From: Sneathiella chungangensis
Lineage (GTDB): Bacteria > Pseudomonadota > Alphaproteobacteria > Sneathiellales > Sneathiellaceae
Assembly (NCBI RefSeq): GCF_009882935.1
Contig: NZ_WTVA01000004.1
Location: 202,203-245,115 of the forward strand
Direction: 5' to 3'
Length of the DNA stretch: 42,913 nt
The notes under the pieces are model-generated. The model made no database searches. It saw nothing but the letters and a program-made list of their open reading frames with translations, and was not told the origin of the DNA. Below, piece after piece: positions 332-42,913 of this stretch (the stretch's first letter is position 1; every line of letters begins with the position of its first letter). The position numbers and the translations under genes were made by a program.

Positions 332-1291
332 ATGGGAAACGAATGCAAACGTCGGTTACCGGAAGCTAATGACAGGCTATTCCTCACAGAGGCCGGGATC
401 GAGACAACCATGATGTATAAGAAGGATTGGGAGTTTCGGCATTTCTGTCTGTTTGAGTTGCTGCAAAATGATCGGTTTGTGGATGATCTGCGTACCTATC
501 ATACGGGCCTGATTGAGGTGGCCGTTGAACATAAAGTCGGTCACCTGTTGGATGGTGTTCATTACCGCGCGAGCCCCGACTGGGGAGCCTTGTTGGGCAT
601 GTCTGAACAACAGCTTGCAGACCTCACCGCAAAAGGTATCGAAATTTATTCTGAGTTGTCTCAAGAATATGCGACCGAGGACACACCGATCCCGGTCGGA
701 TGTTGCATTGGTCCACGTGGCGACGCCTACAACGCTGATCTCGTAATGAGTGCTGAAGAGGCCTAAGAATATCACAGTGTACAAATCGCCACCGCTAAAT
801 CGGCTGGTGCTGATTTTATTTCTGCCCTGACCTTCAATCACATCGAGGAGGCAATTGGGATCACCCGAGCCGCTAGCGCTGCTGAAATACCAATCATAAT
901 GTCGTTTTCGCTTGGCCGAGAGGCTGTCCTCAAGACGGGACCGACGATCGGTGACGCTATTGAGGCAGTAGAGGTAGCCACCGATCGAGCACCCCTTTTT
1001 TACATGATAAATTGCAATCATCCGATTGACTTCGCACCTGCCATTGCTGCACCGGGGCGCTGGATTGACAGGTTGAAAGGAGTGCGGCCCAACGCCTCTT
1101 CTCTTGATCACGGGATACTATGTAAGCTTGGCCACCTTGAGGAAGGCGATCCAATTGAGTTGGGACAGCAAATGGGGGATCTGGCGCGGAGGTTTCCGCA
1201 GCTCAACGTTTTTGGCGGATGTTGTGGTACTGATCGGCCCCATATGGAGCAAATTGCTAAAAACGTTCTCAATGTTCGGGCGCACGCCTAA
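332..1291 (+). pseudogene. Homocysteine S-methyltransferase family gene, one in-frame stop
   Basis: The reading frame is of the homocysteine/betaine S-methyltransferase type (Pfam S-methyl_trans), which moves a methyl group from a donor to the thiol of homocysteine or a similar thiol. The frame is 319 positions long and is interrupted only by a TAA at 764-766 (codon 145). Family similarity continues without a frameshift on both sides. The N-terminal part has the LTEAGIETT start of the barrel. The C-terminal part keeps all three expected zinc cysteines: Cys228 in INCNHP and the Cys297-Cys298 pair in GGCCG. The start ATG has only a weak GGGAAG upstream. It is preceded by element A1 and converges with regulator A. 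It is either a recent pseudogene, a sequencing error or a read-through gene. The methyl donor cannot be told from sequence. Confidence 0.8.
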
Positions 1292-1505: not shown

Positions 1506-2543
1506 TCACACCGCTTCGATTGGTTTGGCGATTTGGGATATGTGTTGAAACTTCTTGCGATAGGCCGCGGGCGACAGGCCGACGCTTCGTTTGAAGAGCC
1601 TTCGGAATGAAGCCGAGTCCTCATAGCCAACTGAGATCCCGATGTCGTCAACTGAATAGGATTCAATTTCCAGCATCTGTTTGGCTTCCTCGATCCTCAA
1701 CGCCTGCACGTATTCAATTGGCGACAATCCTGTTGCTGACCGAAAGCGACGAGAAAATGTGCGGGCATTTAGGCCGGAGCGTCCGACCATGTGTTCGACT
1801 GGATTAGCCACAGCATAGTTGTCGGCGATCCATACCTGACAATCAGATATCTGTCTGTCTGTCGTTTCTATCGGACGGGTCATCACTGAATAGGGCGACT
1901 GGCCTTCGGAATGCCCACTGATCAAAAAGACTTTGGCAGTTTCAATAGCGTGCTGATATCCGCAAAACCGGGCGATCAGGTAGACCGCCAGATCATGCCA
2001 TGCACTGACGCCACCGGCCGTCACGATAAGATCAGACTCCGCGGTCAAGCACAGAACAGAATCATTGCGAAACGCAACTTTTGGATAGTGGCGCTGGAAC
2101 ATGTCACGATAGGCCCAATGGGCCGTTGCCTCGTGCCCATCCAAAAGGCCCGCCTCGGCCAGCATAAGTGACCCCGAACAGACGGAAGTTAGCAGTGCGC
2201 CGTCCGAATGCACTTTGCGAAGCCATGCAATTTCACGCGGATGGCGCCCTTTGGGGACATCATAGATTGAAGTATACATATCGCAAACAATCACCGCGTC
2301 GGGCATATCAATTTGGCTCACAGCGGTATGCGGCTCTACAGGGATATTCCCCAGACAGCGAAAAGCTTTGCCATCCGTTGATGCAATGCGGACATCCAAT
2401 AGCTCGTCACCTGGAGCCCCGACCACCATGTCGGCATAAACCGCCCCTACCGATTGTAAAACATCATAAAGTCCGTAAAGAACTGACGCTGAGGTTTCTG
2501 GCGCCGCCAGCAACACGATCAATGGCTTTCTGTTTTTACTCAT
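1506..2543 (-). CDS. GlxA-family AraC-type transcriptional regulator (A)
   Basis: A two-domain regulator. The N-terminal 200 or so residues form a DJ-1/PfpI-like amidotransferase-fold domain with the elbow SVCSGS (Cys130 in the longer form, Cys122 from the start used here). The C-terminal 100 residues carry the two AraC helix-turn-helix motifs (ARTFSRRFRSATG... and DDIGISVGYEDSASFRRLFK). In known GlxA-type regulators such as ArgR, GbdR and CdhR the N-domain senses small nitrogenous ligands. A GTG at 2567 would add eight residues. I prefer the ATG at 2543 because it aligns with the N-terminus of regulator B, but neither has a strong ribosome-binding site. It is divergent from the FAD oxidoreductase, with element A2 between them. 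It is a clear paralogue of the regulator at 38831-39856. Confidence 0.92.
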   Translation of the reverse strand: MSKNRKPLIVLLAAPETSASVLYGLYDVLQSVGAVYADMVVGAPGDELLDVRIASTDGKAFRCLGNIPVEPHTAVSQIDMPDAVIVCDMYTSIYDVPKGRHPREIAWLRKVHSDGALLTSVCSGSLMLAEAGLLDGHEATAHWAYRDMFQRHYPKVAFRNDSVLCLTAESDLIVTAGGVSAWHDLAVYLIARFCGYQHAIETAKVFLISGHSEGQSPYSVMTRPIETTDRQISDCQVWIADNYAVANPVEHMVGRSGLNARTFSRRFRSATGLSPIEYVQALRIEEAKQMLEIESYSVDDIGISVGYEDSASFRRLFKRSVGLSPAAYRKKFQHISQIAKPIEAV

Positions 2544-37160: not shown

Positions 37161-38573
37161 CTAACGTGCAGGTCCGGTTCCGAATATTTTGCATCCCGCG
37201 ACAATGAGTATTGTCGTAACAGCGAGCATGCCGGCAACTAAAACATACACCAGAATGTTTATTTCAACGTCCCATAGGCGGACAAGCGACCAACCGATTA
37301 TGGCGATGATCAGGAGACGCGCATTAATGGCAAGAAAAGGGATAAACGGTTTGTTGGCACCAAACAGAGCGAACGTGAGGCCCAGGGCCGCGCCGATAAA
37401 GGGTAACGGAAAAGCGATGATGTTAAGATAGCTTACGCCCGCGGAGATTACCCGTGGATCGTTGGTGAACAATTCCATCCAGTATTCTGCGGCAAATAAA
37501 GCGATCGCTCCCAAAGATGCACCGATGGCAGTTGCGATGACCATTCCGGCCCAAGCTATCTGCCGAACTCGCTCCCAATTGTTGGCACCAAGATTGGTCG
37601 CGACCATGGTGATGATAGCCGATCCCAGCGCGAAGGTGATCGGGATTTGTAATAACTCAAGCCGGCTTGCCGCACCATAGCCGGCCAGGGTTGCCTGTCC
37701 ATATCCTGCAACAAGGGTTGTTGTAACGATTACAATTAATTGATTTTGCAAAACATTTAGGGAAGCAAAACCGCCTATGCCCAGGATCTCCCTCATGTGG
37801 GACCAAGATGGCATTAGGTTTTTAAGATAAAGACGAACCAGGGACCTGCTGGAAATAAGATACAGGAATAGAACACATGCTCCGACTAAGTAAGATGACA
37901 GTATCGCGATAGCGGCGCCGTATACGCCCAGTACAGGGAAGGGGCCCCAGCCAAGAATTAGGGCGGGCGCCAGGGACAAATGGAATATTTCTCCGATAAC
38001 TATTGCGCTGGCCGGAACGATCATATTGCCAGTTCCACGAACGATGTTGGCAAGGACGTTCATGATCCATACGAATGTAATCCCGCTAAAAACAACCATG
38101 GAATATCGCGTGGCTTCCTCGAGAGTGGCGCCTTCGGCGCCCATCCAGCTATATATCGTCGGCCCCGTCGAGAGAAAAATGCAAGTGAAAAGGATGGCCA
38201 CGATCAACGCAAGTAAAATCCCCTGTGACGCCACTCGAGACGCCTGATCCTGATTGCCGGCGCCCAATGCGCGTGCGACCGCGGCTGACGTGCCGGTGCC
38301 TATGCCACTGGCCGACATCATCTGCATGATCAGGAATATGGGGAACACCAAGCTAACGCCAGCCAAGGCATCTGTTCCAATCCAGCCAACAAAAAGGGCG
38401 TCAAACGCGATAAAGGATACGCGGGCGATGGCTTCACCGACATTTGGCGCCGAAAGTCGCAAAAGTGTTCCAAAAACCGGCCCCTGTAACATGCGGTCAG
38501 TCGATGACGTTGATTTCTTCGGTTCAATTGGTGCGTCGCCATCCGGTAACCATGCTGATTGTTCGATTGTCAT
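37161..38573 (-). CDS. MATE-family multidrug efflux protein
   Basis: A 470-residue cation-coupled antiporter of the inner membrane with 12 predicted helices in two MatE repeats. Repeat 1 shows APNVGEAIARVSFIAFDALFVGWIGTDALAGVSLVFPI, and repeat 2 shows GFASLNVLQNQLIVIVTTTLVAGYGQATLAGYGAASRLE. Exported compounds are unknown. The upstream gap holds a 17-bp perfect palindrome (38652-38668) and a copy of element B (38733-38756), so its expression may be shared with the regulator B genes. No strong ribosome-binding site precedes the ATG. Confidence 0.92.
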   Translation of the reverse strand: MTIEQSAWLPDGDAPIEPKKSTSSTDRMLQGPVFGTLLRLSAPNVGEAIARVSFIAFDALFVGWIGTDALAGVSLVFPIFLIMQMMSASGIGTGTSAAVARALGAGNQDQASRVASQGILLALIVAILFTCIFLSTGPTIYSWMGAEGATLEEATRYSMVVFSGITFVWIMNVLANIVRGTGNMIVPASAIVIGEIFHLSLAPALILGWGPFPVLGVYGAAIAILSSYLVGACVLFLYLISSRSLVRLYLKNLMPSWSHMREILGIGGFASLNVLQNQLIVIVTTTLVAGYGQATLAGYGAASRLELLQIPITFALGSAIITMVATNLGANNWERVRQIAWAGMVIATAIGASLGAIALFAAEYWMELFTNDPRVISAGVSYLNIIAFPLPFIGAALGLTFALFGANKPFIPFLAINARLLIIAIIGWSLVRLWDVEINILVYVLVAGMLAVTTILIVAGCKIFGTGPAR

Positions 38574-38651
38574 TATTATTCTTTCAGTTGAGCTGGCCGG
38601 AAGAATTTTCTTCGCCCGGTTAGAGGAAGCAGCTCCAATGTCAGGAAAACA

Positions 38652-38668
38652 ATTACCTGTCAGGTAAT
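38652..38668 (-). promoter_or_regulatory. Perfect 17-bp palindrome upstream of the MATE gene
   Basis: ATTACCTG, one base, CAGGTAAT. It lies 79 nt upstream of the MATE start codon. The form is typical of operators of TetR-type repressors of efflux genes, but no TetR gene is adjacent, so the binding protein is unknown. Confidence 0.6.
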
Positions 38669-38732
38669 GAGATGGGCCGTCACCTGGAAAGGAAAATACG
38701 AAACGCTGTGCGCGTTTAACAGAGCGACAATG

Positions 38733-38756
38733 GACAAAAGCGGGTCATTTGGGACA
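38733..38756 (-). promoter_or_regulatory. Element B3, third copy, facing the MATE gene
   Basis: Read on the minus strand it gives TGTC, five bases, TGACCCG, then TTTTGTC after one base. This matches the core of B1 and B2 (TGTC-N5-TGACCCG-N-T-W-TTGTC). As with B1 and B2 the element points at the gene downstream of it, but the distance to the MATE start is about 160 nt rather than 83. Confidence 0.5.
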
Positions 38757-38830
38757 GTGCTGCACTTCGGCTACGCCATGTTGCCTTAGGAAATTTATCC
38801 GAAGGTAAAGCTGCGGACGATGAGTATCGT

Positions 38831-39856
38831 TCAAAAAGTGGAAATATCTTTAAAGCGCAGTCGATACTGGTGGGGGCTTATACCGGTTGTTCTCTTGAAC
38901 AGGCGACGGAATGAGTTGGGCTCATCATAGCCAACGGATTCGGCGATATCGTCTATCGCGTCATCCGACGTTTCCAGCATTTGTTTTGCCTCTTCAATCC
39001 GCAACGTCTGTACATAGTCCAGCGGCGTATAACCGGTTGCAGATTTGAAACGCCGTTTGAAGGTTCTCGAATTGAGGCCGGACAGTACGGTCATTTTCGC
39101 AACAGGATTTACTCTTTCATAGTTATCAGCAATCCAGGTCTGGCAGTGGGCGATGATCGCATCGTCATGCTGTTTCGGACGCACCATGGCGGCAAAGGGT
39201 AACTGGCCGTCATTGCGATCTCCAAAAAGGAAGACCTTTGCAATATGCCGCGCTTCTGCTTGACCGCAAAACCGCGCGATCAAATAAAGCGAAAGTTCAT
39301 GCCAAGAAGAGGTTCCCCCTGATGTAATCACTTGGTGCTGTTTGCCAGCAGGAACAAGAATTCTGTCCGGTTTCAAAAGAACTTTCGGATAACAGCTTTT
39401 AAAATATTCAAGCGCGCCCCAGTGAGAAGTCGCTTCGAGACCATCCAGTAGGCCGGCTTCGGCCATCATCAAGGAACCGGTACAAACGGAGCAGATAATG
39501 GCGCCTTTGCTGTGCTGATCCTTGATCCACGCAACCGCCTCGGGCCAGTCGCCAATAGGATCAATCCCCGAAAGCACATCCAGGTCGGCGACGATGACGA
39601 CATCTGAACGGTGTGCTTCTTCAAAAGTATGATCCGGAACAATTGTTGCCCCCAACGTTGTTCGGATAGGCGCCGTTGAATGGCCGACTATCCGCGGTGT
39701 CATTTTACCGCAATTTGATTGCTCGCCGGTTAGGGTTTCCCAAGCCCCGCCAACGCAGGAAAACACCTCATGGAGGCCATAAACAACATGGGCTGACATT
39801 TCTGGAACTGCCACAAGACTGACAGTGATATTTTTTGAATAAACTGAAAGAGGCAT
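38831..39856 (-). CDS. GlxA-family AraC-type transcriptional regulator (B)
   Basis: A paralogue of regulator A. The N-terminal DJ-1/PfpI-like domain has the elbow SVCTGS (Cys130 in the longer form). The C-terminal AraC domain has the two helix-turn-helix motifs SRTFKRRFKSATGYTPLDYVQ and DDIAESVGYDEPNSFRRLFKR. An ATG at 39871 would add five residues but lies inside element B1, so the ATG at 39856 is preferred; neither has a clear ribosome-binding site. It is divergent from the tandem-DUF1127 gene. Three copies of element B surround it, making it the likely regulator of the DUF1127, nitroreductase-like and MATE genes. Confidence 0.92.
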   Translation of the reverse strand: MPLSVYSKNITVSLVAVPEMSAHVVYGLHEVFSCVGGAWETLTGEQSNCGKMTPRIVGHSTAPIRTTLGATIVPDHTFEEAHRSDVVIVADLDVLSGIDPIGDWPEAVAWIKDQHSKGAIICSVCTGSLMMAEAGLLDGLEATSHWGALEYFKSCYPKVLLKPDRILVPAGKQHQVITSGGTSSWHELSLYLIARFCGQAEARHIAKVFLFGDRNDGQLPFAAMVRPKQHDDAIIAHCQTWIADNYERVNPVAKMTVLSGLNSRTFKRRFKSATGYTPLDYVQTLRIEEAKQMLETSDDAIDDIAESVGYDEPNSFRRLFKRTTGISPHQYRLRFKDISTF

Positions 39857-39865
39857 GTGCCGTAG

Positions 39866-39903
39866 TGTCATGTTTGACCCGTTATTGTCAACAATGAAAC
39901 TAA
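39866..39903 (+). promoter_or_regulatory. Element B1, operator/promoter of the tandem-DUF1127 gene and regulator B
   Basis: A 38-bp block identical to B2 at 33 positions. It contains TTGAC-N8-GTCAA as an inverted repeat. It begins exactly 120 nt before the ATG of the DUF1127 gene. The leader between holds a 6-bp stem (GCGAGC 39940-39945 / GCTCGC 39966-39971) four bases before the ribosome-binding site. Confidence 0.7.
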
Positions 39904-39985
39904 TAAAGAGATTCTTCTTGTGTCAGAAGATGCCCAACAGCGAGCCCTTTTGCTCAAATTTTTGCGCTCGCCAAAGGAGATACAA

Positions 39986-40510
39986 ATGTTGAATTTCGGA
40001 GAAACATTATTAACCGCACTTGCCTTGATTGAGCCGCGCAAGACCGACAATAGAATTTTCACGGAGCCGGTGCAGATTTCACAGACGAATAGAAGCGATA
40101 TTATTTCGGCATTGAAAGTGCCAGGTAAATGGATTGGCCGCCTTTTCCTGAAATATCGCCGCCGCCGCGATTTGGACCTGGCCAGATTCAGGCTTTATGG
40201 AATGTCTGATTTGCATTTGCAGGATATCGGACTCAGGCGTTGCGATATCTACGATGCGGTTGAGAGAAAAGCAGAGGCATACAAAAAGAAGAAGTCGGGC
40301 TTGCTTAAAGCGGTCAAGAAAAAACTAATGGATGCACGTAAGACCCGCGAGGCTTATGTGCAATTGATGTCCATGGACGCAAGACAGTTAGCCGATATTG
40401 GGCTCACGCGCAGTGATCTCCAGGCTGTCCGGAATGGCATTGTCAAGGATTTTGCCAATTGCAACCGGTTACACGCAAGCAACACTAACGATCGCCGGCG
40501 TGCCGGTTGA
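39986..40510 (+). CDS. Protein with two tandem DUF1127 domains
   Basis: A 174-residue, very basic protein. Two DUF1127 copies are visible, at about residues 55-90 (RRDLDLARFRLYGMSDLHLQDIGLRRCDI) and 115-150 (TREAYVQLMSMDARQLADIGLTRSDL), joined by a lysine-rich linker. Most DUF1127 proteins have one copy and are shorter. The ATG at 39986 has AAAGGAG seven bases upstream. A GTG at 39920 would extend the frame but has no such site. It is preceded by element B1 and a leader hairpin. Possible RNA-related or regulatory role by family, not shown here. Confidence 0.85.
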   Translation: MLNFGETLLTALALIEPRKTDNRIFTEPVQISQTNRSDIISALKVPGKWIGRLFLKYRRRRDLDLARFRLYGMSDLHLQDIGLRRCDIYDAVERKAEAYKKKKSGLLKAVKKKLMDARKTREAYVQLMSMDARQLADIGLTRSDLQAVRNGIVKDFANCNRLHASNTNDRRRAG

Positions 40511-40603
40511 TCAATCGTGGCCGTTTCGCCGTCCCCTCTCGAAATGCCGATGGCTTGACCGCGATATTTTCTCGATTTTTTCCACGCCTTGATATGCGGC
40601 AAA

Positions 40604-40641
40604 TGTCCTTTTTGACCCGATATTGTCAATAATGAGACTAA
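40604..40641 (+). promoter_or_regulatory. Element B2, operator/promoter of the nitroreductase-like gene
   Basis: 33 of 38 bases are identical to B1, and it again begins exactly 120 nt before the next ATG. The leader holds a matching stem (GGCGAGC 40677-40683 / GTTCGCC 40703-40709, one G-T pair) followed by TGGAGA. The stem starts at the same offset as in the B1 leader. Confidence 0.7.
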
Positions 40642-40723
40642 CGGGGCGCGCCAAATTATGTGAAAAGCCCTGCAACGGCGAGCCATCTTAACATCTTTCC
40701 TCGTTCGCCCAATGGAGAAGAAA

Positions 40724-42127
40724 ATGCTCAAAACTACACGTCGTAAATTGCTCGGCGGATCGATGATCGGTGCCAGCGCGCTCCTAAGTGGAGTCGGCTT
40801 GAACGCAACGGCTGACGAACTGAACAGAAAAGGAAAAATCATGCTGAACAAGTTACCGGCCTTGCCAAACGGGCTGATTGAAGCCGCCGAATTTCCGCTG
40901 ATTGAAGCCATTCATGGCCGCCGCTCCCGACGGTTTGCGCGCGGCGCGTCGATTCCGGAAGGGCCGCTGGCCTACACTTCCAAACACGATCCCGCGCCGC
41001 TCAGCGACATGGAGCAGCTTTTGTTGCTGACCACAGTTGGCGGGAATACCGGATGGTCGAACCTTATCCCCAATAACCGTTTTTATCTGCCCAAGATTCC
41101 GAATTACGCAGGGGCTGCCGGTGGTCGCACCTTTCCATCCGCCGCGGGATTTCACACGACGGAAATTTTTTATACGGATGACAAGGGAACATATTTTTTC
41201 CCGACAAGGGATATGCCTGCCACAACCGCAAAATCGGCTGAGGATGGAACGGATCTCAACGCCTATCTCAACGAGCATAAGGCTCGAATTGTCAAGCTTT
41301 CCGACGGCCGTTTGAATACGCCGGCCACTCCTTTGCATATGGAAATGCACAACGAATGGTGCGCGAATGTTCCGGGAAGTACGCTAATTATTCCGGTGGC
41401 GGATCTCGCTCAACATATGATCCTTGTCATCTGTTATCTGGTTCAGAACGGGGCTTGCATTTATGACGACGTCAATAATCAGCCGATCTCAGGCCTGGAA
41501 AAGTTCAAGAACCTTGTGGATATCGAAAACCCGTATCCGCTTAGCTATGTTGAGCAGCTGGGGCTTACGGAAGTTACGGTTGAGCTGTCCACGTCATGCT
41601 ATGCGGGGGCGCTGATGCTTCAGGCTCTCGGGCTTGGCGGTTGGATGTATGAAGGGATAAATCCGTTCAGTATTCTCGGTGCCAGTGGCGATCCGGATGT
41701 ACCGGGGTTGGGTTTCCGCTTTGATATGCTCGAGGAGCAGCCCTTGCCGAATGTGACAGGCCTTGAAGGTGTGTTTGAAGGCCATTGCCCGCCGCATTTC
41801 AAGGATATGCGCGCTGCCGTTGACTCCGTCGTTACCCGAAAATTTGGTGACGGTGGACCTTTCAATAAGCAGACAGACGGACCCTATAAGCAAAACGCAG
41901 AAATTCGGGGCAGCGCTGCGCCAATCGGTGATGAGTTTATCGATTGCGTCACGACCATGGCGCAATACATTTTCGACAAATTTGGGCGCTTCCCGGCAAC
42001 CGTTCCCCCGATTTTCACCTTGATGTATCTGCAGGCGCATCAACTCGATACGGAGTTTTATGACACGCATTTTACATCCGGTGCTTATCTTAGAACGCAT
42101 GCCGATCACGATAAAAACTGGGTCTGA
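40724..42127 (+). CDS. Tat-exported nitroreductase-like protein
   Basis: A 467-residue protein. The N-terminus TTRRKLLGGSMIGASALLSG is a twin-arginine-type signal, suggesting export of a folded, cofactor-bearing protein. The body resembles the nitroreductase/SagB-type flavin fold in AIHGRRSRRF, PLSDMEQLLLL and the late YAGALMLQALGLGGW helix. The long middle part is not familiar to me. ATG 40724 has GGAG six bases upstream, and the ATG at 40712 overlaps that site. The equal 120-nt distance from B2 supports this start. The MddA-like gene follows 126 nt later. Function is unknown, and an FMN-dependent periplasmic redox enzyme is a reasonable guess. Confidence 0.65.
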   Translation: MLKTTRRKLLGGSMIGASALLSGVGLNATADELNRKGKIMLNKLPALPNGLIEAAEFPLIEAIHGRRSRRFARGASIPEGPLAYTSKHDPAPLSDMEQLLLLTTVGGNTGWSNLIPNNRFYLPKIPNYAGAAGGRTFPSAAGFHTTEIFYTDDKGTYFFPTRDMPATTAKSAEDGTDLNAYLNEHKARIVKLSDGRLNTPATPLHMEMHNEWCANVPGSTLIIPVADLAQHMILVICYLVQNGACIYDDVNNQPISGLEKFKNLVDIENPYPLSYVEQLGLTEVTVELSTSCYAGALMLQALGLGGWMYEGINPFSILGASGDPDVPGLGFRFDMLEEQPLPNVTGLEGVFEGHCPPHFKDMRAAVDSVVTRKFGDGGPFNKQTDGPYKQNAEIRGSAAPIGDEFIDCVTTMAQYIFDKFGRFPATVPPIFTLMYLQAHQLDTEFYDTHFTSGAYLRTHADHDKNWV

Positions 42128-42253: not shown

Positions 42254-42913
42254 ATGATTCAACGATATTCAATACTCATTTACGCCTTGGTTGCCTACGC
42301 TATCGCATCCTTCAATCTCGTCTATATCATGGGATTTCTTGCGGAGCTTTATGTTCCAAAAAATATCAGTGATGGCATTCAGGGTGAGCTTTGGACGGCA
42401 ATTTTGATCGACATCGGACTCCTCTGGTTATTCGGTTTGCATCATTCCATCACGGCCCGCACCTGGTTCAAGAAATACTGGACAAGATTTGTTCCGCGGC
42501 CGATCGAACGGGCGACCTATCTTTATATGACGGCAATCATGACAGGGCTCCTGATCCACTTCTGGCGACCAATCCCGATAACAGTCTGGCAGTTCGATAC
42601 TGAGATACTGAGAAATTCTATTTACGGCGTCTATTTGCTCATCTGGGGTCTCATGTTGCTTGCGACTTTTCAGTTCGGGTATTTCGGCTTTTTTGGTCTG
42701 AAGCAGGCCTGGGAAAGGTTTCGCAATAAGCATGCGGCTGCCACGGGGTTTAGCGCGAAATGGCTTTACGGTATTGTCCGTCATCCAATCAGCTTATGCT
42801 GGATGATGATGCCCTGGATCACGCCGCATTTGACCGTTGGGCATATTGTTTTCGCCCTTGGAATATCAAGCTACATCCTTGTCGCCACACCATTTGAAGA
42901 GATGGATCTAATC
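42254..42913 (+). CDS. mddA: Methanethiol S-methyltransferase-like membrane protein (MddA/NnrU family), 3' end outside the window
   Basis: The first 220 residues of an integral membrane methyltransferase with five or more helices. The segments LFGLHHSITARTWFKKYWTRFVP, PIERATYLYM and HFWRPIPITVW, then YGIVRHPISLCWMMMPW with the cofactor-binding RHP motif, match what I recall of MddA, which methylates methanethiol to dimethyl sulfide with S-adenosylmethionine. NnrU and isoprenylcysteine methyltransferases share the fold, so the reaction is probable, not certain. GGAG lies 8 nt before the ATG. Probably co-transcribed with the Tat-exported protein under element B2. Confidence 0.78.
   Translation, partial: MIQRYSILIYALVAYAIASFNLVYIMGFLAELYVPKNISDGIQGELWTAILIDIGLLWLFGLHHSITARTWFKKYWTRFVPRPIERATYLYMTAIMTGLLIHFWRPIPITVWQFDTEILRNSIYGVYLLIWGLMLLATFQFGYFGFFGLKQAWERFRNKHAAATGFSAKWLYGIVRHPISLCWMMMPWITPHLTVGHIVFALGISSYILVATPFEEMDLI

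Follow-up and report, generated by a model that had tools for sequence, protein, structure and literature searches.

A putative operator-promoter of a GlxA/FtrA-like AraC regulator, in two copies before a DUF1127 gene and a nitroreductase-fold gene of Sneathiella chungangensis

The window analyzed here is a 42,913-nt stretch of a Sneathiella chungangensis contig (NZ_WTVA01000004.1). Near its right end, a regulator gene, regB, is divergent from a DUF1127 gene and from a gene for a nitroreductase-fold protein, and a gene for a MATE transporter lies on its other side (Table 1). RegB combines an N-terminal DJ-1/PfpI-like domain (PF01965, 47.0 bits, above the cut-off of 26.6) with a C-terminal AraC helix-turn-helix (PF12833, 83.9 bits, above the cut-off of 33.6). 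Its best NCBIfam match is FtrA (NF006902, residues 61–342), but RegB falls far under the equivalog cut-off (168.2 versus 425 bits) and was not named FtrA; GbdR was rejected likewise (94.8 bits, equivalog cut-off 480). In the DUF1127 protein, one stretch passes PF06568 and the second repeat was recognized by reading. The product of 40724–42127 belongs to the FMN nitroreductase fold, matches no Pfam family at E = 0.001 and no NCBIfam family at E = 1, and is predicted to be an exported-looking candidate FMN-binding reductase. The gene that follows it has an orthologue in another Sneathiella genome (locus L062), for which no Pfam family scored above cut-off.

Table 1. Features of the regB locus, in window coordinates.
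Feature	Coordinates	Strand	Remarks
MATE-family efflux transporter gene	37161..38573	-	Downstream of B3
Operator B3	38718..38756	-	Past the RegB stop codon, before the MATE gene; rank 3, foreign-only matrix
regB	38831..39856	-	DJ-1/PfpI domain and AraC helix-turn-helix; GlxA/FtrA-like AraC regulator
Operator B1	39866..39904	+	Two direct half-sites, boxes at offsets 0, 9, 20 and 29; rank 1, foreign-only matrix
Inferred promoter, DUF1127 gene	39900..39927	+	-35-like 39900-39905, -10-like 39922-39927; conserved offsets
B1 leader stem	39940..39971	+	GCGAGC 39940-39945 / GCTCGC 39966-39971; then GGAGA 39976-39980
DUF1127 protein gene	39986..40510	+	Two-repeat type, 174 aa; PF06568 43.7 bits, cut-off 23.3
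Operator B2	40604..40642	+	Before the nitroreductase-like gene; rank 2, foreign-only matrix
Inferred promoter, nitroreductase-like gene	40638..40665	+	-35-like 40638-40643, -10-like 40660-40665; conserved offsets
B2 leader stem	40677..40709	+	GGCGAGC 40677-40683 / GTTCGCC 40703-40709; then GGAGA 40714-40718
Nitroreductase-fold protein gene	40724..42127	+	467 aa; N-terminal Tat-like RR motif, recognized by reading
Downstream gene, cut by window end	42254..42913	+	Neighbour conserved in many relatives, whether RegB is there or not

A first-pass annotation of this DNA had noted that B1 and B2 share 33 of 38 bases and begin exactly 120 nt before their start codons. Our recount bears out both statements (sites from 39866 and 40604, start codons at 39986 and 40724). 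Over the 82 nt that follow the 38-bp match, 40 bases are identical without gaps. The earlier reading had missed a fourth half-box within the 38-bp match as well as a third site, B3, on the minus strand, whose first three boxes are intact and whose fourth is degenerate; the MATE start codon lies 183 nt downstream of it. All three sites surround regB. An earlier scan for regulators and operators used a matrix that also includes the window sites, and the non-circular test was a matrix of 28 sites from outside Sneathiella with the window sites excluded. On this foreign-only matrix B1 (26.6), B2 (25.4) and B3 (16.5) were the three top scores of the window, and the maximum over 40 simulated windows was 13.8. 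Because the second-best match to B1 within the window reaches 25/38, and because B1 and B2 score so far above the simulated maximum, their resemblance is beyond chance.

We also searched the whole genome with a model, R1, trained on 30 of the aligned sites (B1 and B2 among them), with at most 150 candidates scored per genome. B2, B1 and B3 were the three best matches, B3 at E = 0.047. A wider RegB regulon in this genome was rejected, as the next two matches are partial (E = 0.15 and 0.22; 150 of 1060 first-look candidates scored). Three other exact genomic matches to TGTC-N5-TGACCCG (C11, C12 and C13) were discarded too: they lack the rest of the operator, and the best matrix scores around them are -1.5, 5.4 and 0.6.

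Alignment of 31 operator sites revealed invariant or nearly invariant bases at TG-C (from offset 0), G (10), CCG (13–15), GTC (21–23) and CT-AC (34–38). The plan is TGNC-N5-TGNCC in two direct half-sites with a 20-bp period, the last box being the loosest. Direct repeats of such boxes are the usual plan of AraC-family sites, and tandem repeats about two helical turns apart appear to fit a GlxA/GATase-1-like AraC regulator. Conserved columns outside the operator are few, namely the regB start codon, offsets 56–60 and offset 70. Offsets 34–39 (CT[ACG]ACG, at most four matches to TTGACA) may serve as a -35 element and offsets 56–61 (TG[CG][CG]AT-like) as a -10 element, with a 16-bp spacer between them. 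An A occupies offset 60 in 87% of the aligned sites; the -10-like element is weak, and loci L056, L066 and L079 deviate from it. The length of exactly 120 nt, at first taken as a special feature, is one value in a range: the operator lies 95–125 nt from the start codon at 28 of 29 sites, and 226 nt away in L053.

Next, we examined how the operator is distributed among relatives of the nitroreductase-like protein, collected in a single scan of genomes of bacteria and archaea (the best 80 of 99, L049–L128). The matrix and RegB were sought in the window and its 44 nearest loci (L049–L092). One of these, L062 (also G015), is the other Sneathiella, and the remaining 43 foreign loci encode nitroreductase-like relatives of 56–79% identity. 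The operator is present in 28 of the 43, and in 26 of these 28 a divergent RegB orthologue (55–68% identity) adjoins it; RegB is partial at a contig end in L049 and lies in two pieces (48% and 64%) in L075. No RegB was found in the locus DNA of the 15 operator-less foreign loci, some of which offer little upstream DNA (1.5 kb in L091, 2.7 kb in L058 and 3.3 kb in L089). The first-pass annotation had named absence of the motif near orthologous regulators as a refutation, and every one of the 26 foreign loci in which RegB is divergent carries the operator, although these are neighbouring genes and sites related by descent and do not count as 26 independent tests. The two exceptions, L050 and L069, carry an operator variant without an adjacent regulator, and their genomes have only RegB relatives of 43–45% identity. 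In the genome of L050, one relative is close kin of a second regulator of the window, regulator A (82%), and the relative located 8.6 kb from the operator is not a member of the RegB group described below.

We extended the searches beyond the loci. A whole-genome search for RegB in 10 operator-less genomes found no match at E = 1e-60 in nine, and a 39% relative in the tenth (L070). R1 was run on 21 of the 29 operator-bearing genomes (L062 included): in all 21, matches with E < 1e-7 occur only at the nitroreductase locus, twice in one Rhodobacter that has two such loci, and the next best match anywhere has E = 0.011. In four of the 15 operator-less genomes, R1 found nothing better than E = 0.035. 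A strict operator pattern, which itself misses many of the 28 sites, had no occurrence in L093–L128.

The RegB proteins of the operator loci form one group (support 93/89, 26 rows), as they do when a paralogue from contig 12 of the S. chungangensis genome is included (97/94). Regulator A, the remaining one of the 27 regulator rows in the tree, falls outside it; the RegB proteins of L049 (truncated by the contig end) and L075 (two pieces) were too short and were left out. Since the alignment began past the start codon in 7 of the 26 RegB rows, the starts were re-examined in all 26. An in-frame start lies 9–11 nt from the operator in 25 of the 26 genes (L084 has none), and no Shine-Dalgarno sequence was found within 18 nt of any of these 25. 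In the window, regB most likely starts at 39856, 9 nt from B1 and again without a Shine-Dalgarno sequence, and not at 39871. Starts this close and without a Shine-Dalgarno sequence suggest that the operator probably covers the regB promoter too. No paper describing this regulator group with this operator was among the literature matches listed; the locus provides such a clade with an operator, a promoter and a target set that can be tested.

Collectively, these data favor the view, to which we give a probability of about three in four, that B1 and B2 are two copies of a RegB operator-promoter, taken jointly with activation, a leader and the third site B3. The first-pass annotation had proposed a regulator-operator-leader module controlling transcription, and the 26/26 loci support an operator-promoter-leader unit of RegB, with putative binding. 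What the data display is the elements, their conservation, the co-occurrence with RegB and the fold; we infer that RegB binds B1 and B2, and likewise the direction of control, the ligand, the promoter positions and the role of the leader hairpin. RegB would bind the operator with its proximal half over the weak -35 (CT[ACG]ACG), the -10-like element following 16 bp on. Because of this overlap, RegB most likely activates from a class II position, and a small ligand is probably involved; it is the geometry that points to class II activation rather than repression. On an operator 9–11 bp from the regB start codon, RegB would probably also repress its own transcript, which is possibly leaderless. 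The target transcript would start around offset 68, giving a leader of some 50 nt in which the hairpin is 5'-proximal.

The same overlap with the inferred target -35, together with the closeness to the regB start codon, would also suit a repressor that blocks RNA polymerase at the target promoters until a ligand releases it. We consider this unlikely, since a scan for consensus sigma-70 promoters found none at B1 or B2, as is expected where a promoter needs an activator, and since SphR and CdhR, both of the AraC family, are described as ligand-responsive activators (PMC3900636, PMC5806209).

These two regulators are also among the closest known systems. The target genes of SphR (Pseudomonas aeruginosa) are preceded, as here, by tandem direct-repeat half-sites beginning with TGNC; unlike here, the half-site is TGNCCSNNRNNSNCC with 6–8 bp between copies, and the regulon is a sphingosine regulon whose target genes are unrelated to those of RegB (PMC3900636). 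The CdhR/GbdR group of P. aeruginosa (GATase-1-like AraC regulators) shares the subfamily plan of RegB. Like regB, cdhR is divergent from its target gene, and the site lies in the intergenic region that both share; 6-bp cores separated by 15 bp make up its direct repeats (a period of ~21 bp), and CdhR represses its own basal expression (PMC5806209). CdhR differs in its core, GGTCGC, and in being a class I activator bound well upstream (PMC5806209), whereas the RegB site overlaps the inferred -35. The putative RegB-operator pair is a new, well-bounded example of a familiar type of bacterial switch; what is unusual is the duplicated operator, and what recurs is the DUF1127 partner.

We then considered the leaders. 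As first described, a stem stands at the same offset in both, with GCGAGC at offset 74 (39940–39945 and 40678–40683) and GGAGA just after the stem; the core in the B2 leader pairs with GTTCGC at 40703–40708. Singly, the leaders fold weakly (z = -0.30 for B1 and -1.83 for B2), with best-stem p-values of 0.055 and 0.020 that are optimistic for leaders related by descent. Twenty-eight leaders were compared, from the 31 sites minus L053 and minus L081 and L082, whose starts are not fixed; the start codons of L055, L064, L084 and L092 were chosen by hand, as automatic assignment gave none or several. Their mean folding z is -1.27. Over a fixed 46-nt stretch, the mean is -1.23 compared with -0.06 in 49 control leaders taken at these loci (p = 8e-5, again optimistic given common descent; G+C 0.60 in leaders and 0.52 in controls). 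A best stem with p < 0.05, subject to the same optimism, occurs in 8 of the 28 and not in the other 20. A hairpin is likely as a trend of the group.

Covariation of the GCGAGC stem is modest. The closing pair changes in kind among the seven GCGAGC-type leaders compared, being G-C in B2 and L051, A-T in L062 and T-A in L050 and L069; that much of the proposed covariation stands. In B1 and L049 these two bases are unpaired, and an eighth leader with the GCGAGC arm, L054, lacks the partner arm and lies outside this comparison. Within the stem, B2 has a G-T at one inner pair and L051 has lost another. Stems of other sequence occupy this position in many of the remaining leaders.

The annotation had also suggested translational control, for which Shine-Dalgarno masking is the obvious route. 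Pairing of the ribosome site averages 0.50 over the 28 leaders and 0.51 with shuffled upstream sequence, with p < 0.05 in 2 of 28, and masking was dropped as a general feature. The leader might still act on its own as a switch of translation or attenuation; attenuation has been described for a duf1127 gene in Sinorhizobium meliloti (PMC12218461). The leaders as a group are more structured than controls, and in some of them (for example L049, L050, L064, L067 and L080) the ribosome site can pair with an upstream pyrimidine stretch. We find this quite unlikely in view of the pairing averages. A scan for terminator-like sites (a stem, then a T run; loops of 3–8) found none at the B1 or B2 leader, reading found no T run after either stem, and Rfam gave no match up to E = 1 over 38500–40800, arguing against a known riboswitch or leader RNA family. 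The S. meliloti case parallels the present one in its regulated leader before a DUF1127 gene (here putatively regulated), but that leader is 279 nt long with an upstream ORF, against about 50 nt here, and the sole terminator candidate tested in it proved unneeded (PMC12218461). In the RegB activation scheme, the hairpin would more likely set mRNA stability or the context of the 5' end than mask the ribosome site.

Could the 33/38 match merely reflect a recent local duplication without shared regulation? The copies are 738 bp apart, and their downstream leaders align (z = 6.1). Yet orthologous leaders are equally close (z = 6.3 for B2 with the other Sneathiella, 6.5 for B1 with L050), and the bases conserved between B1 and B2 are those conserved in the 28 foreign sites, which makes such a duplication very improbable. 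The two cassette copies are old, the B2 leader being equally near to the B1 leader and to the leader of the other Sneathiella. The DUF1127 gene and the nitroreductase-like gene would each own one of them.

The two genes had been called unrelated in the first-pass annotation. They are connected by recurrence: 10 of the 28 foreign operator loci have a small ORF (56–79 aa) with a DUF1127 motif between the operator and the nitroreductase-like gene, with closely spaced genes and a single operator. The label comes from the motif and from reading; of three such ORFs submitted to Pfam, two pass and that of L074 fails. In L089 (2.9–3.3 kb), a DUF1127-like ORF immediately precedes the nitroreductase-like gene, although RegB and the operator were both sought in this locus and not found; the pairing thus does not depend on RegB alone. 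In the other Sneathiella that has the locus, a single operator directly precedes the nitroreductase-like gene, and a DUF1127 gene is missing at this place. The DUF1127 protein of the window differs from the small ones in being of a two-domain type; it has matches in 22 of 24 genus genomes (this one included, with a second copy at G000:C13:382724), and these matches sit elsewhere in the genome, as only 2 of the 24 have the nitroreductase locus. What is distinctive here is the second operator copy before a two-domain, genus-type DUF1127 gene.

These patterns suggest that DUF1127 genes joined the RegB regulon at least twice, here with a second promoter copy; protein size and domain number point to independent recruitment. 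As to polarity, the DUF1127 gene may have been gained in this lineage or lost in the other Sneathiella through recombination between two operators. A bolder version, which we rate as a long shot, is that the RegB promoter unit is a transplantable cassette that drew in DUF1127 genes more than once, short single-domain ones elsewhere in Alphaproteobacteria and a two-domain genus-type one here through promoter duplication. The hairpin would travel with the promoter and not with the gene, and the DUF1127 protein itself might target it, which, if true, would create a feedback loop. CcaF1 of Rhodobacter is an RNA-binding protein. CcaF1 is a DUF1127 protein, and DUF1127 proteins reportedly act through protein contacts with PhoR. 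Through this locus, a nitroreductase-fold family of exported appearance is linked to the DUF1127 proteins, about whose functions debate continues, and the only genome with the duplicated operator offers a natural experiment on a regulon gaining a member.

In seven loci of sphingomonads without RegB (L052, L058–L061, L063 and L068), the nitroreductase-like gene has a common, different promoter region with a GTATCCA-N-[TC]GGATAC-like palindrome, recognized by reading; given this other palindrome, the gene may be under a different regulator there.

The third site, B3, probably adds the MATE exporter to the RegB regulon; no MATE neighbour was found in L049–L092, with flanks of up to 4.5 kb. A terminator-like hairpin at 38701–38717 (minus strand), between B3 and the MATE gene, is probably the end of the regB transcript, and the inferred B3 start (~38688) would lie beyond it; terminator-like sites in the region number five, against 2.9 expected.

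Sites of the same plan with TGCCC boxes (TGTC-N5-TGCCC-N6-TG[AG]C) occur on the plus strand at 156–194 and 2595–2633. Regulator A (1536–2543, minus strand) is 46% identical to RegB; the second of the two sites lies between its gene and that of a FAD-linked oxidase (2698), and the first precedes an ORF at 332. Both are probably regulator A operators. A weaker site of this plan (score 13.6) lies on contig 12 of the same genome (L041, 4267, minus strand), 98 nt before a gene, methyltransferase-like by reading, that is convergent with the gene of a RegB paralogue (52%), which suggests a site grammar shared among RegB paralogues. The ORF at 332–1291 (plus strand), which we take to be homocysteine S-methyltransferase-like, is broken by one in-frame TAA after codon 144 and is possibly a pseudogene.
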